The notes below the pieces were generated by a model. The model did no database searches. It was not told the origin of the DNA and was given only the letters and a program-made list of their open reading frames with translations. This document shows positions 29,381 through 36,845 of a stretch of 64,000 nucleotides of DNA, piece by piece. Where the stretch lies: the NCBI RefSeq assembly GCF_015732185.1, contig NZ_WIQM01000016.1, forward strand, positions 186,001-250,000, in the 5' to 3' direction. The position numbers and the translations under genes were made by a program. How positions within the stretch are numbered: the first letter of the stretch is position 1; each line of letters begins with the position of its first letter. Source of the stretch: Pectinatus haikarae (lineage in GTDB: Bacteria > Bacillota > Negativicutes > Selenomonadales > Selenomonadaceae).

Positions 29381-30557
29381 AGTTAAATGAAAGTTGAGGA
29401 CTCGTCAGCCCTTCTGGTACAATAGTTTTATCACAAACACTGTACCTCCCGAAAGGAGACGAGTCCTCATGACAAAATCATATCAGATTTGCTGTCCAAA
29501 ATGCAACAATCATCAAAACTTTTATCGTTATGGCAAAGATAAAGATGGAAATCAAAAATATCTTTGCCGTGTATGCGGGCATCAATTTGTACCATATGCC
29601 AATACAACCGGCAAATCAGGAAGGCCACGCATACGTTCTTACCCAATTTGCCCTATCTGCGGGAAGGCCATGTTTCTTCATCATGAACACAAATATTATT
29701 CAAACTACCAATGTGGTGACAAGAAATGCGGTCATTCCCTTTTTGTCCCAAAACAAGCTGCTATTACAGCACCTTCCATGTCGAAATTGTCAGGAAAAAC
29801 CAATTTCAAGCGAATGCGTTATCCTATGCATGTTATTCTGACGGCATTGTCAATGTTTTATTTAGGCAAGAATTCTTTCCGTAATATTGCTCTTATTATG
29901 CGTACGGTCATGAATATTCAGCTTTCTCACACCACCATCAGCAACTGGTGTACGAAATTTGCCCCTTTGTTTCACAACATTGCACTTGAATTGATACCAA
30001 CGCTCAATTTCGACTCCGATGAATGGCACGCGGACGAAACCGTGGTGAAAATCCGTGGCATGAAATATTATCTTTGGTTAATTGTGGACAGCGAAACACG
30101 TTTTGTCCTCGGCTTTCATCTTTCCAAACACCGGGATAGTCCTCAGGCTTTTTCCCTGCTTAATTCCGTTAAGCACCTTGGCAAACCCAGAGCCATTGTA
30201 ACCGACCGTTACAGTGCCTACAAAGTTCCTGTAAAAGCAGTGCTGAACGTCAAACATATCCGTGTCCACAGCTTCAGTGACGATATCACCAACAACCTGA
30301 TTGAATGCTTTAACAAGCAGTTCAAAGCATGGTATAAAACCAAACAGGGATTTTCTTCTTTCAATTCCGCCAACAACCTTATTGCGGTTTTTCTCTTTTT
30401 TTACAATTTTGTCCGTCCTCATTCCGCTCTTAACAGTTTGACTCCGGCACAAGTTGCAGGGCTCAATCTTTCTGCCAGAAGTAAACACAAGCTTTTGTTC
30501 GTTGCTTGAAGTATTTGGCTGTTTCTGTTTGTTAATCTTTCATGTTTACTTTACAAA
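29375..30557 (+). mobile_element. IS6-like insertion sequence, complete
   Basis: About 1.18 kb. The left end reads TTGTAAAGTTAAATGAAAG (from 29375) and the inverted right end reads TTGTAAAGTAAACATGAAAG (complement, ending about 30556). One intact transposase gene lies inside. No target duplication is visible, as expected if it landed in an older related element. It marks the boundary between the accessory DNA and the chromosomal genes that start at 30790. Confidence 0.75.
29469..30509 (+). CDS. IS6/IS240-like DDE transposase with N-terminal zinc ribbons
   Basis: A 346-aa protein with ATG 29469 behind AAAGGAG. Residues 1-95 carry Cys pairs of two zinc ribbons (CCPKCNN.., CRVCGHQF, CPICGKAMF, CGDKKCGHS). 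The catalytic domain has DEWHADETVVKIRGMKYYLW (first Asp), IVTDRYSAYK (second Asp) and NNLIECFNKQFKAWYKTKQG (Glu), the DDE triad with IS6-family spacing. It ends in NFVRPHSALNSLTPAQVAG. It is complete and looks functional. Confidence 0.8.
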   Translation: MTKSYQICCPKCNNHQNFYRYGKDKDGNQKYLCRVCGHQFVPYANTTGKSGRPRIRSYPICPICGKAMFLHHEHKYYSNYQCGDKKCGHSLFVPKQAAITAPSMSKLSGKTNFKRMRYPMHVILTALSMFYLGKNSFRNIALIMRTVMNIQLSHTTISNWCTKFAPLFHNIALELIPTLNFDSDEWHADETVVKIRGMKYYLWLIVDSETRFVLGFHLSKHRDSPQAFSLLNSVKHLGKPRAIVTDRYSAYKVPVKAVLNVKHIRVHSFSDDITNNLIECFNKQFKAWYKTKQGFSSFNSANNLIAVFLFFYNFVRPHSALNSLTPAQVAGLNLSARSKHKLLFVA

Positions 30558-30789: not shown

Positions 30790-32160
30790 CTACATAGTAC
30801 GGCGTTGTATCAACGCTACAGCCTCCACGTGCGAAGTCATAGGGAACATATCCACCGGCTGAATCTGCTCCGCCCCATAACCGAGCCCGTTCAGTATTGC
30901 AATATCACGGGCCAATGATGCCGGATTGCAAGAAACGTACACTATATGTTTTGGACGCATATCAGCAAATGTTTTGAGCACAGTCGGCGTACAGCCTGCA
31001 CGTGGCGGATCAACTACCACCACATCGGCGCGAACGCCCTGTTTATAGAGCTGCGGCATTACAATGGTCGCGTCGCCAACAATAAATTCAGCATTCTTTA
31101 CATGATTATCGCGGGCATTCTTCTGCGCATCAATAACGGCTGGCTTAACTATCTCAATACCATATACTTTTCTGGCTTTTTGAGCCAGAAAAAGTGTTAT
31201 TGTACCTGTCCCGCAGTATGCATCAATAACAGTTTCTCTGCCCGTAAGATTTGCATATTCCAATGCCTTTCTATATAAAATTTCAGCCTGATCAGTATTG
31301 ATTTGAAAGAAAGAACGAGGCGATATATGAAAGGAGAGCATGCCCAATGTATCTTTTATAGTAGGTTTCCCCCACAAGAGGTTAGTTTCCCGCCCCATAA
31401 TTACATTGTTACGATAAGTCTGCACATTTTGCTGAACACTGACAAGCTTCGGCAGCTTTTGCCGCAGAAGACTTACAAATTCCTTACTGCGACGCAATTC
31501 TTTTGTTGCTGTCACAAGCACAAGCATGCACTCTCCGCCCCTACCAACACGCCCGACTACATGACGCAGCATTCCCATATGACGGTCTTCATCGTATACA
31601 CTGATCCCAAGTTTTTGTACAATATCACGGACTGCATTAATAATATCATTGTTCAATTCTTTTTGAATATAACAATTTTCCGTATTTATTATCTGATGAC
31701 TGCCTTGTGCAAAGCAGCCAATAATTATCTTTTTTTTATCTCTGCCGACTGGGAATTGCATTTTATTACGATAATTCCAAGGATTTTGTGCTCCAAGTGT
31801 GGGATGGACAGTTAAATTCTTCTGACCGCCGATTCTTTCGACAGCATCCGTCACCTGCTGCTGTTTTATTTTTAATTGAGTTTCATAAGCAAGATGCTGC
31901 AGCTGACAGCCGCCGCATTCGTAGTAAAGCCCACAGCGTGGCGTCACTCGCTGCGGGCTGGCTGCTGTGATATGGACTATCCTGCCGATAGCATAATTTT
32001 TCTTTATTGTATGAACAACTATTTCTGCCTGTTCGCCCGCCAATGAATAAGGGACAAATACAGTAAAACCATCAATGCGCCCCACACCTTCGCCATTGCT
32101 GCCAAGGCCTGTGATATTGATCGTATATTTAGCATCTTTTTTTATTGGTACAGATTTCAT
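30790..32160 (-). CDS. rlmD: 23S rRNA (uracil-C5)-methyltransferase, RlmD/RumA family
   Basis: A 456-aa protein with an N-terminal TRAM RNA-binding domain (residues 1-65, GLGSNGEGVGRIDGFTVFVP), a Cys cluster CGLYYECGGCQLQHL for an iron-sulfur cluster (residues 77-91), and a SAM-binding methyltransferase domain (DAYCGTGTITLFLAQKARKV, VVVDPPRAGC). The catalytic loop is YVSCNPASLARDI, with the nucleophilic Cys. It uses SAM to methylate a uracil of 23S rRNA; RlmD versus RlmCD specificity cannot be told from sequence alone. It is the first chromosomal gene beside the mobile region. Confidence 0.88.
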   Translation of the reverse strand: MKSVPIKKDAKYTINITGLGSNGEGVGRIDGFTVFVPYSLAGEQAEIVVHTIKKNYAIGRIVHITAASPQRVTPRCGLYYECGGCQLQHLAYETQLKIKQQQVTDAVERIGGQKNLTVHPTLGAQNPWNYRNKMQFPVGRDKKKIIIGCFAQGSHQIINTENCYIQKELNNDIINAVRDIVQKLGISVYDEDRHMGMLRHVVGRVGRGGECMLVLVTATKELRRSKEFVSLLRQKLPKLVSVQQNVQTYRNNVIMGRETNLLWGKPTIKDTLGMLSFHISPRSFFQINTDQAEILYRKALEYANLTGRETVIDAYCGTGTITLFLAQKARKVYGIEIVKPAVIDAQKNARDNHVKNAEFIVGDATIVMPQLYKQGVRADVVVVDPPRAGCTPTVLKTFADMRPKHIVYVSCNPASLARDIAILNGLGYGAEQIQPVDMFPMTSHVEAVALIQRRTM

Positions 32161-32189: not shown

Positions 32190-32852
32190 TTATTTTTCAA
32201 CAAATATAACCTTGCGGAAAAGATCAGAAGGATGTTCTAATAAAAGTGCAGCTCCATTTGCCACAAGTTCTTCTTTAGCACGAAATCCCCACAAAACTCC
32301 TACAGGCAGCATCCCTGCATTTACGGCAGTTTGCATATCAACTGAAGAATCACCTATATACACAATTTCCTGAGGTTTCAACGCCATATTTTCGGCGATA
32401 ATAAAAACTTTTTGCGGATCAGGTTTACGTTTAAAACCTGGAAGATCCCCTATAATTTTCTGAAAAGTATTTCTGGCAAATAAGGTTGCGATAATTTTTT
32501 TTGCAGCCTCATCATGCTTATTGGTACAAACTGCAAGCGGAATATTTTTTTTCTTAAGATCTTCCAACATGTTTATTATACCTTCATAGGGTGCGGTTTT
32601 ATCCAGCTGATGTGATTTATACACCGTTTTAAATCTTGCCAATACTTCTTCGCGGATTTTTTCAGATATATTGGCAGGCAGTGCGCGCTCTATGAGCATT
32701 CCTATGCCGTTGCCAACCATGATGCGATATTTATCCACAGGATGTGCAGGATAGCCATATTCCTTCAACACCACATTGACACTATCCGCCAGATCATTCA
32801 AAGAATTTACCAATGTACCATCAAGATCAAAGATGACAGCTTTGTATTCCAT
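32190..32852 (-). CDS. gph: HAD hydrolase, phosphoglycolate phosphatase type
   Basis: ATG 32852 (MEYKAVIFDLDGTLVNS) has AGAGG about 9 nt upstream; an ATG two codons earlier is too close to it. The 220-aa protein has HAD motif I DLDGTLVNS, motif II VCTNK, the Lys of motif III (KRKPDP) and motif IV YIGDSSVDMQTAVNAG. The alpha-helical cap after motif I is of the Gph/PGP type. It most likely dephosphorylates 2-phosphoglycolate formed from DNA repair, though substrate range in this group is broad. It is 29 bp before rlmD on the same strand and probably cotranscribed. Confidence 0.8.
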   Translation of the reverse strand: MEYKAVIFDLDGTLVNSLNDLADSVNVVLKEYGYPAHPVDKYRIMVGNGIGMLIERALPANISEKIREEVLARFKTVYKSHQLDKTAPYEGIINMLEDLKKKNIPLAVCTNKHDEAAKKIIATLFARNTFQKIIGDLPGFKRKPDPQKVFIIAENMALKPQEIVYIGDSSVDMQTAVNAGMLPVGVLWGFRAKEELVANGAALLLEHPSDLFRKVIFVEK

Positions 32853-32878
32853 ATACATATACCTCTATCCTTCATAAA

Positions 32879-33352
32879 TCAAACGTTTTTATGTTCAAGC
32901 TCAAGCAAAAATTTTTTTACCTTTATATTGCGAGTATGCACCGGCAATATTCCCGCTTCATTAACAAGCCGATGACTGGGAATACATATATCTATGTGAT
33001 TTTTATTTTTGGCAGTTTCCACAGCTCGTATAGCTTTCGGCTTACCGACAGCAGCTGCCAGCTCTCCATAAGAGCAGGTATACCCATATGGGATTTGTAA
33101 AAGCGCCTCCCATATTTTTTTCTGAAAGGCAGTTCCATCTTGCCGCAAGGGCAATAAAAATCCTTTTCGGACACCGCTTAGATATTCTGTAATCTGCATA
33201 TAGGTTTCTCTGATCAGCAGTGTCTCTGTTTCAAGCGCCGGGGTAAAAGGTTTATGATAACTTATCCCTGTGATAAATGATTTTTCCTCTGTTATATATA
33301 TATTACCAATCTTTGTCTGATAAACAAATCTTTTTTTCAAGAAAAGATACAC
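32879..33352 (-). CDS. Ogt-like methyltransferase homologue with catalytic Cys replaced by Ser
   Basis: A 157-aa protein with the O6-methylguanine-DNA methyltransferase fold: an N-terminal domain, then FQKKIWEALLQIPYGYTCSY (helix-turn-helix), GELAAAVGKPKAIRAVETA (arginine finger region) and NKNHIDICIPSHRLV. In Ogt/Ada the last motif is PCHRV and its Cys accepts the alkyl group. Here the codon is AGT (Ser), one base from TGT. The usual following GYxGG region is also changed. The protein could not repair by alkyl transfer. It resembles alkyltransferase-like (ATL) proteins, which bind alkylated DNA and hand it to excision repair, though ATLs usually have Trp or Ala there. A sequencing error is possible. 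Confidence 0.75.
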   Translation of the reverse strand: MYLFLKKRFVYQTKIGNIYITEEKSFITGISYHKPFTPALETETLLIRETYMQITEYLSGVRKGFLLPLRQDGTAFQKKIWEALLQIPYGYTCSYGELAAAVGKPKAIRAVETAKNKNHIDICIPSHRLVNEAGILPVHTRNIKVKKFLLELEHKNV

Positions 33353-33388: not shown

Positions 33389-33733
33389 CTACAATGCTAA
33401 AAGTGTCTTCAGCTCATTCGCTATCTGCTTAAGCCCCCATGGCTGTGCCAGTAATACAGGAATGGCAGCCCGATACTGCTTCAGTGTAGCCATAAGGACA
33501 ACATCCGTATAATCTTTACTCAGATCGGCGCAATAGCGGGAAACGGCTGCATCCCCCCCCTTGCTGAGCATTGTCTGCTTCAGTATATTGGCCGCTTTCG
33601 TTTTTACCTTATATATTCTGACAACACGAAATACTGCTTTTTCTGCCATCATTGCAGTACCCTCTTTTGTACAATCAACATCTAAAAGGATTTTTTCCGC
33701 ATCTTTTTTATCATTGATTTTTATAATTTTCAT
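33389..33733 (-). CDS. Small protein resembling the N-terminal domain of long dihydropteroate synthases
   Basis: ATG 33733 (MKIIKINDKKDAEKIL) avoids overlap with the MBL gene that ends at 33741 and gives 114 aa; the frame extends to 33772. The sequence AVFRVVRIYKVKTKAANILK, QTMLSKGGDAAVSRYCADLS, DVVLMATLKQYRAAIPVL follows the extra N-terminal domain of FolP proteins of clostridia and Negativicutes, but no pterin-binding barrel follows. The role of that domain is unknown to me. The ribosome binding site is weak and the gap to the MBL stop is only 7 bp, so translation is probably coupled. Confidence 0.55.
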   Translation of the reverse strand: MKIIKINDKKDAEKILLDVDCTKEGTAMMAEKAVFRVVRIYKVKTKAANILKQTMLSKGGDAAVSRYCADLSKDYTDVVLMATLKQYRAAIPVLLAQPWGLKQIANELKTLLAL

Positions 33734-33740
33734 AAAATAT

Positions 33741-34361
33741 TCAGACAAAATACGGATTATTGATTTTTTCACTGCCTATGGTAGTGCTTGGGCCATGCCC
33801 CGGATAGACGATGACCGAGTCGTCCAGCGGCAGCAATTTTTCTTTGAGGTTCTCTATCAGCCCGGCAGTTGAACCGCCGGGAAAATCAGTTCTACCTATA
33901 GAACCGGCGAAAAGTGAATCACCGGAAAAAACAAATTTTTCATTTATAAGACAAATACCGCCTGGGCTGTGCCCCGGCGTATGAACCACTCTCAGTCTGC
34001 TGCTGCCGACTTTTATTATATCATCTTCATTCACAAAAAAATCTGCTTTTTTAGACAGTATATTCAATCCCCAGTATGCTGACAGATTCAACTTGGCATC
34101 GGTCAGCATAGGTGCATCCATTGGATGAATACCCAATTTGGCATCAAATTCATTGCAAATATCTGTATTAGCACCGATATGATCACTATGCCCATGCGTA
34201 TTTATTACATACTTGACATCACAGTCTTCTTCTCTTACCCATTCGATGATAAGCTTTGGCTGTGATCCCGGATCAACAATAATTCCCTCCTTTGTGCCTT
34301 CATCAATAGCAAGATAACAGTTTTCTTCAAATGAACCATTCGTAAAAATTTTTACTTTCAT
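33741..34361 (-). CDS. MBL-fold hydrolase, YcbL/glyoxalase II-like
   Basis: A 206-aa metallo-beta-lactamase-fold protein. The metal-binding motif is NTHGHSDHIGA (HxHxDH, residues about 54-63); further ligands are VVHTPGHSPGG (His), FSGDSLFAGSIGRTDFPGG (Asp) and YPGHGPSTT (His). This is the short glyoxalase II-like type found next to rsh in many Firmicutes, without the C-terminal helical substrate domain of true GloB. It probably hydrolyses a thioester, but the substrate is unknown. It begins 4 bp after the rsh stop, in the same operon. Confidence 0.82.
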   Translation of the reverse strand: MKVKIFTNGSFEENCYLAIDEGTKEGIIVDPGSQPKLIIEWVREEDCDVKYVINTHGHSDHIGANTDICNEFDAKLGIHPMDAPMLTDAKLNLSAYWGLNILSKKADFFVNEDDIIKVGSSRLRVVHTPGHSPGGICLINEKFVFSGDSLFAGSIGRTDFPGGSTAGLIENLKEKLLPLDDSVIVYPGHGPSTTIGSEKINNPYFV

Positions 34362-34365
34362 CTTC

Positions 34366-36594
34366 TTAATCCTCTTTTATCTCCTTTACGCCCCCCAAAG
34401 AGCGCGCTACCCTGAATACGTCTTTATTATGCCGAAACTTACTCATTATTACTTCAGCCTGAGCCATGCTGCGTACTTCCAAACTCATTGATATATTTGA
34501 TGTCTTATTTTTTCTGTTCGGCCGCGCGGCTACAGAATGGATATTTATCTTCGATTCGGAAGGTATTGCCAGCAGCGCTGTAAGAACCCCCGGATGATCA
34601 TTGCAAATAATATCTATCGTTACGGTATATGTCTTATCAAGGCCCACATCCCAGCTTACATCGACAACACGTGAAAGATCATTATCAGCATTTAATACAT
34701 TGGGGCAATCCGCACGATGGATAGATACCCCGCGGCCTCTTGTTATATAACCGATTATAGAATCACCTGGTATCGGATTGCAACATCGCGACAAATGCAC
34801 AAGAAAGCCGCTCTCACCATCAACGAGAATCCCGTGACTGCCTTTTTTCTTTTCACCCTGTGGTTTTATTTTTTCCAGCATCTGCGATATATCGGACGGT
34901 GTAACTTCTTTCAGATCCTTTTTGTAAAGCTCGATGAGGCGGGAGATGACTCCGTTTACGGTAATACCACCGTACCCAAGTGATGCCAAAAGATCATTGG
35001 CATTTTGAATATTCATTTTCTGCGCAACTATATCAAGCCGGTTTTCCTTGAGCATTTTTTTTGAATCATAGCCGAGATGCTTAATTTCTTTTTCGATGAG
35101 AGCCATGCCAGAGTCAATATTTTCTTCACGTTTCTGCCGCTTGAACCATTGGCGTATTTTAGTGCGCGTTTCAGATGAAGCCACTATATTAAGCCAATCA
35201 GGACTTGGCCCGTTATTTTGAGAATTACTGAGTATTGATACTATATCACCATTATGAAGTTTATATTCAAGAGGTACGATTTTACCGTTTATCGTTGCCC
35301 CTACACAATGATTGCCAATATCAGTATGTATACGATATGCAAAATCAATAGGATTTGAACCTTTTGGCAGACCGATGACATCGCCCTGCGGTGTAAAAAC
35401 AAAAACCTCATCAGAGAATATGTCGACCTTAAGCGCCTCAACATATTCATCAGGATCACTCAATTCCGTCTGCAGCGAAATAAGCTGACGCAGCCATGAT
35501 AATTTTTGATCATAAGCATTGCTGGCATCTATGCTTTTCCCTGATTCCTTATATTTCCAATGTGCGGCAATGCCGTATTCAGAAATCTGATGCATCTGAA
35601 ACGTTCGTATCTGTATTTCCAATGGATAACCATTTGCCGCGATTACTGTGGTATGGAGCGATTGGTACCCGTTGCTTTTGGGCATTGCTATATAATCCTT
35701 AAATCTGCCGGGGATAGGCTTCCATATATTGTGAATTATCCCCAAAACTGTATAACATTCCTGTACAGTTGAAACCAATACCCGCACAGCTGACAGATCA
35801 TATATTTCACTTATATCTTTATTGTCCCGCTTCATTTTCCGCCATATGCTGTAAAAATGTTTGGCACGGCCTTGTATCTCAGCATCTATATTTGCTTTTT
35901 TTATTTCTTCGGACATCTCTTCCACAGAATCATCTATAAATTTCTGACGTTCCTGCCGTTTTTGTTTGACCTTTTCAACAAGATCATAATATTCTTCAGG
36001 ATAGAGATATAAAAAGCACAGATCTTCCAGTTCCCATTTTATATTGGAAATCCCCAGACGATTGGCCAAAGGAGCATAGATTTCCAGAGTTTCTCTGGCT
36101 ATCCTCTTTTGCTTTTCTTCCGGTACGTATTTTAGCGTGCGCATATTATGAAGCCTGTCAGCCAATTTTATCATTATGACACGTATATCCTTAGCCATAG
36201 CTAAAAACATCTTGCGATAACTTTCAGACTGCTGTACTTCCTTCGATTTAAAATGAATCTTATTTAATTTGGTAACACCGTCAATTAAAAGAGCAACCTC
36301 TTCGCCAAATTTATTTTTCATTTCTTCCAGCGTAAAGGTCGTATCTTCCACTACATCATGTAAAATAGCCGCAGCTATAGTGACTTCATCTATATGCATT
36401 TGTGTGAGTATAGCAGCCACATGCAGAGGATGAATAATATAATGTTCTCCCGAAGCTCTTTTCTGGTCAAAATGCGCTGCATATGCCAGATCATAAGCTT
36501 CCTGTATTATGTTGATATCAGCGCTCGGCTGGTATTCCTTTACAGCAGTTTTTATATCCTCTATTGTTATTTCGACGGCGTTGTCATCAATCAT
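34366..36594 (-). CDS. rsh: Bifunctional (p)ppGpp synthetase/hydrolase, RelA/SpoT family
   Basis: ATG 36594 (MIDDNAVEITIEDIK) follows GAGGG with 8 nt; an ATG 15 bp upstream would contain that site. The 742-aa protein has all Rsh domains: the HD hydrolase (HPLHVAAIL, AAILHDVVEDTTFT, IMIKLADRLHNMRTLKYV); the synthetase (IYDLSAVRVLV, GRFKDYIAMPKSNGYQSLHT, LEIQIRTFQMHQISEYGIAAH); TGS (VFVFTPQGDVIGLPKGSNPI); a region with RCCNPIPGD; and a C-terminal ACT domain. The HD motif is intact, so it should both make and degrade (p)ppGpp in the stringent response. The upstream gene cstA is divergent. MBL and folP-like genes follow in the same direction. Confidence 0.93.
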   Translation of the reverse strand: MIDDNAVEITIEDIKTAVKEYQPSADINIIQEAYDLAYAAHFDQKRASGEHYIIHPLHVAAILTQMHIDEVTIAAAILHDVVEDTTFTLEEMKNKFGEEVALLIDGVTKLNKIHFKSKEVQQSESYRKMFLAMAKDIRVIMIKLADRLHNMRTLKYVPEEKQKRIARETLEIYAPLANRLGISNIKWELEDLCFLYLYPEEYYDLVEKVKQKRQERQKFIDDSVEEMSEEIKKANIDAEIQGRAKHFYSIWRKMKRDNKDISEIYDLSAVRVLVSTVQECYTVLGIIHNIWKPIPGRFKDYIAMPKSNGYQSLHTTVIAANGYPLEIQIRTFQMHQISEYGIAAHWKYKESGKSIDASNAYDQKLSWLRQLISLQTELSDPDEYVEALKVDIFSDEVFVFTPQGDVIGLPKGSNPIDFAYRIHTDIGNHCVGATINGKIVPLEYKLHNGDIVSILSNSQNNGPSPDWLNIVASSETRTKIRQWFKRQKREENIDSGMALIEKEIKHLGYDSKKMLKENRLDIVAQKMNIQNANDLLASLGYGGITVNGVISRLIELYKKDLKEVTPSDISQMLEKIKPQGEKKKGSHGILVDGESGFLVHLSRCCNPIPGDSIIGYITRGRGVSIHRADCPNVLNADNDLSRVVDVSWDVGLDKTYTVTIDIICNDHPGVLTALLAIPSESKINIHSVAARPNRKNKTSNISMSLEVRSMAQAEVIMSKFRHNKDVFRVARSLGGVKEIKED

Positions 36595-36845
36595 AATAAT
36601 TACCCTCATTCATTTAAATCGCCCAACGGAAACATATTTACATTTCAACTGAACTTTTGTTATTGATTGTATCATATTAATACATTTCATAGCAATAGAT
36701 TAAACATCGACATCATCCCCGGATTCATACCCGATCTGCGGCCGCAGCGTTTTTTTGATCTTATGAATCCCGGTAAACTGTTTTTATCTGTACCTTATAT
36801 AATAAAGATATACACCGTTTATATATACAACTTAACAAATAAAGT

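Follow-up and report, generated by a model that had tools for sequence, protein, structure and literature searches.

What becomes of an Ogt-type protein, a suicide repair enzyme by descent, when the cysteine that should take up the alkyl group is replaced by serine? The question is raised by one gene in the window, i.e., the whole stretch of 64,000 nucleotides of Pectinatus haikarae analysed here (GCF_015732185.1, contig NZ_WIQM01000016.1, positions 186,001 to 250,000). The gene stands in a co-directional row in the order relA, MBL hydrolase, small ORF, ogt, HAD and rlmD, made up of the following features.

30790..32160, minus strand: RlmD 23S rRNA methyltransferase, locus context
32190..32858, minus strand: HAD-family hydrolase, phosphoglycolate-phosphatase-like (below the NCBIfam cut-offs), locus marker
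32879..33352, minus strand: ogt homologue with Ser for the catalytic Cys, frame intact, listed start GTG
32975..32977, minus strand: Ser codon AGT at the alkyl-acceptor position (complement read)
33389..33736, minus strand: small ORF upstream of ogt, without Pfam or NCBIfam match
33741..34361, minus strand: metallo-beta-lactamase-fold (MBL) hydrolase, locus marker
34366..36609, minus strand: RelA/SpoT family protein, locus context

The ogt frame (32879-33352) is open from the GTG over 157 aa. Since the TTG start of three congener ogt genes aligns with its fifth codon, the TTG at 33340 is the likelier start, and the protein probably has 153 aa. An earlier note on this DNA, made from the letters, had described the product, from its IPSHRLV motif, as a homologue of Ogt in which Ser replaces the alkyl-accepting Cys, and the profile matches bear this out (PF01035, 88.1 bits, above the cut-off of 27; TIGR00589, 88.9 bits, above 46.4). 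The N-terminal domain PF02870 scores 19.2 bits, below its cut-off of 21, and the N-terminal part can be aligned along its length to the congener Ogt. An AlphaFold2 model (5 sequences, mean pLDDT 76.8, hinge residues 115-118 below 50) places three strands and one helix in that part, with structure matches falling mainly over residues 32-152. The best matches of the model are OGT/MGMT proteins, such as M. tuberculosis OGT (4wx9, Z 13.1, rmsd 3.0 over 118), along with human C145S (1t38, Z 11.2, rmsd 2.7 over 115) and Sulfurisphaera tokodaii C120S (7e1p, Z 11.4); the S. pombe ATL lies lower (3gx4, Z 9.0, rmsd 2.9 over 85). Such a predicted structure supports the Ogt fold, not the geometry of the pocket.

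The window motif reads I-C-I-P-S-H-R-L-V against IPCHRVI in the congeners, whose Cys codons at this place are TGT in G004 and TGC in G001 and G002. As the earlier note remarked, AGT is one base away from TGT, the very codon used by G004, and the GY-GG region is altered as well: the GYSGG/GYAGG loop of the congeners has become VHTRN, and Pro138 has also been lost. Is the Ser then a sequencing or assembly error at this codon? The single-base distance from G004 and the Cys in three congeners would suit such an error; however, many in-frame changes surround the codon, Ser is written with TCG in two other genomes, and the assembly is 99.57% complete in 17 contigs. Because a TCG-encoded Ser occupies the same column elsewhere and the window protein has nine rare residues at conserved columns (see below), neither chance nor a single misread base accounts for the Ser, and we regard an error as extremely improbable. 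The same two observations, the TCG codons being in two species of another genus, bear out the earlier opinion that more than a sequencing error is involved.

The neighbourhood provides the frame in which relatives can be compared. The HAD gene directly follows ogt also in G001, G002, G004, G090, G027 and G093. The whole set of MBL hydrolase, small ORF, ogt and HAD is found together in G001, G002 and G004 of the window's genus and in G090 of another genus, while G027 and G093 of a third genus, hereafter g24, have HAD after ogt but a different upstream gene. The small ORF, which we take to resemble the N-terminal part of some dihydropteroate synthases (33389-33736), occupies the same place in G001, G002, G004 and G090 and also, there without ogt, in G003 and G010, so that both its sequence and its position are conserved across six further genomes. 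No ogt match was found between the small ORF and HAD in G003 and G010, where the two genes are separated by about 50 bases (L295 2157-2203 in G003, L297 1447-1498 in G010). Judged by the locus neighbours, G003 is the nearest congener of the window (91/99), and since it lacks the gene, ogt is dispensable in this group. Just past rlmD, at 29394-30509 on the plus strand, there is an IS6-family transposase gene (NF033587, 187 bits, cut-off 125).

At this locus G001, G002, G004 and G090 (L038) carry Cys in the motif, whereas the window (codon AGT) and the g24 genomes G027 and G093 (codon TCG) carry Ser. The window Ogt shares 60-63% identity with the Cys-bearing congener genes. In a 64-row tree, it groups with G001 and G004 (100/91) and then with G002 (100/94), and the g24 pair joins outside those four (the six together, 99/87). 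Mapping Ser onto this tree needs two changes, and its starred branches force two. Read from the aligned sequences and this tree, Ser at the motif is a derived state reached by two independent Cys-to-Ser changes, and the best explanation of the window gene is an old, vertically inherited ogt of the Pectinatus group. The earlier note had proposed looking for the residue in close relatives and had taken Cys there as a refutation. Close relatives do have Cys, namely the three congeners with the gene at this place, so that this refutation applies in part. Because the same replacement arose independently in g24 and stands there under purifying selection, the Cys of the congeners points to a derived change rather than to an error.

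How rare is this replacement? Across 235 genomes or records we obtained 250 Cys and 3 Ser in 253 genome-and-motif contexts, which are best matches plus fetched places and not a random sample of Ogt; this agrees with the earlier description of the Ser variant as unusual. The motif position is visible in 258 of the 262 loci (not in L167, L173, L174 and L253), and in terms of distinct sequence contexts, before 29 phylum loci were included, there were 209 PCHR and 2 PSHR. The family survey gave matches in 116 of 189 genomes, all 116 of which were read, yielding 131 contexts with 128 Cys and 3 Ser. The class survey gave matches in 279 of 380 genomes, with letters read for the 30 listed loci and for 60 fetched places outside the family, and the phylum survey gave matches in 129 of 299 genomes, with 29 further loci read, all 29 PCHR. 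No Ser form beyond the three was found among the family, class and phylum loci read. Nor was a natural Ser form of Ogt/MGMT found among the open-licence papers listed on ATLs (alkyltransferase-like proteins) or inactive alkyltransferases, and open-licence papers on MGMT with Negativicutes turned up only gastric cancer and brain tumour topics. Seven family genomes (L158, L160, L156, L157, L163, L112 and L161) hold a second PF01035-like type with the motif (A/E)E-YG-YPCHRV, in which Cys is kept and there is no Asn hinge at the usual place.

What else has changed around the Ser can be read in human AGT-type numbering, assigned by ungapped offset from the Cys column. All three Ser proteins retain Tyr114, Asn137, His146, Arg147 and Glu172. 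At position 128 the window has Arg and g24 has Gln, the counts among the Cys rows being Arg 115, Gln 80, His 12 and Lys 1; an Arg-to-Gln loss of the finger was considered as damage in g24 and ruled out, because 80 of the 208 distinct Cys rows have Gln there. Position 148 is Leu in both Ser lineages, against Val 202, Ile 6 and Leu 0 in the 208 distinct Cys rows. At the 32 columns conserved in at least 80% of those rows, the window carries nine rare residues and g24 four, whereas the Cys rows have 0.90 on average and five at most. All four rare g24 positions (131, 145, 148 and 150) are among the window's nine, an overlap noticed post hoc (4/4 within 9, p 0.0035; 0.012 without the Cys column).

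Could Ser itself have become the working acceptor? In human AGT the Cys accepts the alkyl group with the help of His146 and Glu172, according to PMC10779285, and one may imagine a Ser-His-Glu nucleophile in place of Cys-His-Glu, capable of slow repair or acting on other adducts. The retention of His146, Arg147 and Glu172 in all three Ser proteins would fit this idea; however, alkyl transfer by human C145S AGT was not detectable and its DNA binding was >95% active, as PMC4150771, a paper mostly on C145A, describes it, and C145S has been used for trapping a stable substrate complex (PMC10779285). We therefore hold a Ser acceptor to be very unlikely, and we infer, by analogy with these mutants, that the window Ogt has lost alkyl transfer. 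Because C145S binds without transfer, binding without repair is likewise to be expected of a Ser protein that retains the other elements; the window copy may nevertheless fail to hold the flipped base, because its GY-GG loop and Pro138 are lost. The laboratory-made mutants (human C145S, S. tokodaii C120S) carry the same replacement, while the natural Ser proteins have changed further.

Another group of this kind without an acceptor Cys is that of the ATLs, in which Trp mostly stands for Cys and the Asn hinge is absent; they interact with UvrA and flag lesions for excision repair (PMC10779285). The window protein resembles ATLs such as E. coli Atl/YbaZ and S. pombe Atl1 in that it has no acceptor Cys, keeps the Tyr and the Arg finger, and is encoded in a genome with UvrA. 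It differs from them in that Ser, in the window and g24 alike, occupies the place where ATLs mostly have Trp, that both lineages keep the Asn missing from the ATL hinge, and that it probably has the N-terminal part which ATLs are without. An Ala-type ATL is found in Thermus. With active Ogt/AGT/MGMT it shares the domain, size, locus, orthology with the Cys congeners and most active-site neighbours, but an active Ogt has the acceptor Cys in PCHR where the window has PSHR and Val148 where the Ser proteins have Leu, and in the window copy the GY-GG loop is lost too. Counting the protein among the known ATLs is not supported, since it has a residue other than their usual Trp and retains the Asn hinge. 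Going by its residues, it is neither an active Ogt, the defining Cys being gone, nor an ATL, for which Trp and the missing hinge fail.

The clearest information on whether such a protein still does anything comes from g24. Between G027 and G093 the Ser gene shows 10 synonymous changes and 1 non-synonymous change (dN/dS 0.026, Fisher 1.4e-6), in comparison with 0.022-0.067 for five neighbouring genes and 0.10 for the Ada-linked Cys-Ogt of the same genomes. As both species have Ser, this constraint acted after the replacement, and the Ser gene there is therefore not decaying. Purifying selection in g24 is the strongest sign that a Ser-Ogt has some function.

For the window copy, the competing explanation is that of a relic: its ogt would have lost selection beside another Ogt and become an intact-looking pseudogene, with Ser as one neutral hit and g24 as a separate story. 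The absence of the gene from the otherwise intact locus of the nearest congener, G003, and of G010 speaks for this, as do the nine rare residues and the end branch of the window ogt in the 64-row tree, which is longer than those of its sisters (0.49 vs 0.18-0.21). An intact frame is also not beyond neutral drift, given that a simulated neutral gene stayed free of stops in 36% of cases at 0.05 and in 15% at 0.1 substitutions per site. On the other side stand the intact frame and locus themselves and the place of the changes. The three Cys congeners agree at 96 positions, at 20 of which the window copy differs: 12 of the 26 in the stretch from the hinge to the active-site loop are changed, compared with 8 of the 70 lying outside it (Fisher 4.9e-4). 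Treating the Cys congeners one by one as the odd one out gives 4 to 7 changes, none of them in that stretch. Neutral change is not expected to cluster so. Relative to G004, with G002 as the outgroup, ogt shows 25 to 11 changes (p 0.029), of which the N-terminal part contributes an equal 7 to 7 and the C-terminal domain 18 to 4, and the neighbours give 22 to 18 for HAD, 12 to 11 for the small ORF and 34 to 19 for the MBL hydrolase (p 0.053). Relative to G001, the figures are 23 to 10 for ogt (p 0.035; N-terminal 6 to 4, C-terminal domain 17 to 6), 12 to 39 for HAD, 11 to 9 for the small ORF and 19 to 19 for the MBL hydrolase.

An omega of 1 over the whole window branch is rejected as well (2 delta lnL 16.2), although saturated synonymous sites (a one-ratio fit puts the end branches at roughly 4 to 16 neutral units) make this test a weak one, and the branch includes the Cys period. 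Because of this saturation, we rely on the rejection itself and discard a branch-specific dN/dS value for the window copy. Finally, the independent Ser lineage is strongly constrained and shares three further altered positions with the window, which also weighs against decay. Altogether we consider the relic a real possibility, to which we give rather less than even weight; for the window copy taken alone, we rate a retained function and slow decay about equally likely.

Another Ogt does exist in every Ser genome. In a PF01035 scan of seven genomes, each of the three Ser genomes had two matches and G001, G002, G003 and G004 one each; with the window Ogt as query, G090 and G010 gave one match each. 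In the three Ser genomes, the additional Ogt has PCHR and lies near an Ada-type regulator, accompanied by an AlkD-like protein (PF08713) in the genome of the window and by an HhH-GPD protein in g24. The Ada metal-binding domain scores above the cut-off in 3/3 Ser genomes and in 0/5 others (G001, G002, G003, G004 and G090), and sub-cut-off Ada matches occur in G090 and at a second place in the window's genome. The sole Ogt of G003, like that of G010, belongs to another clade of the 64-row tree. Thus, of the nine genomes compared at the locus, the four that carry Cys gave no sign of a further Ogt, while the five in which a further Ogt occurs have either Ser (three) or no gene there (two), a pattern found after looking and based on few independent events. 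A second Ogt alone does not bring about the loss of Cys, because 15 family genomes show two different motif contexts, and apart from the 3 Ser genomes all of them (12) keep Cys in both. In G027 (L060 5008-6267, minus strand) the Ada-linked Ogt shares one 419-aa frame with a downstream Cys-rich protein, and in G093 (L061 4937-6448, minus strand) they form two ORFs, 152 and 270 aa long.

On balance, we favour, with a little better than even confidence, a Ser-Ogt without alkyl transfer, possibly an ATL-like non-catalytic lesion binder, in a genome equipped with a second Cys-Ogt. The scenario would run as follows. The second, Ada-linked Cys-Ogt would first have taken over alkyl transfer, presumably before the old ogt of the locus lost its catalytic Cys for a Ser that would not accept an alkyl group. 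The protein has nevertheless kept its fold, base-flipping Tyr, Arg finger, Asn hinge, motif His and Arg, and C-terminal Glu, and its likeliest role today would be to bind O6-alkylguanine DNA or an altered set of lesions; a lesion so bound could then be passed to excision repair via UvrA, as by the ATLs with Trp. By analogy, a Ser-Ogt most probably works as a non-catalytic binder of lesions or DNA.

More tentatively, the two lineages may represent a second route to ATL-like sensors, in which Cys-to-Ser and Val-to-Leu changes would have occurred at least two times in Ogts with an N-terminal part and the Asn hinge, each in a genome with an Ada-linked Ogt able to do the repair, and been selected as non-repairing lesion binders; this is possible rather than probable. 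This recurrent natural Cys-to-Ser change, with purifying selection in one genus and a second Ogt in the genome, is a natural experiment in turning a suicide repair enzyme into a non-catalytic protein, and it bears on the origin of ATLs. In practice, annotation by PF01035 or TIGR00589 alone would label a Cys-less protein of this kind a methyltransferase.

A full-length UvrA gene is present in all three Ser genomes. No second UvrA place above the cut-off was found in the window's genome, and g24 has a second, shorter UvrA-like gene (G027:C36:107204-109390 and G093:C4:28776-30962), a 781-codon frame scoring 747 bits over joined pieces.
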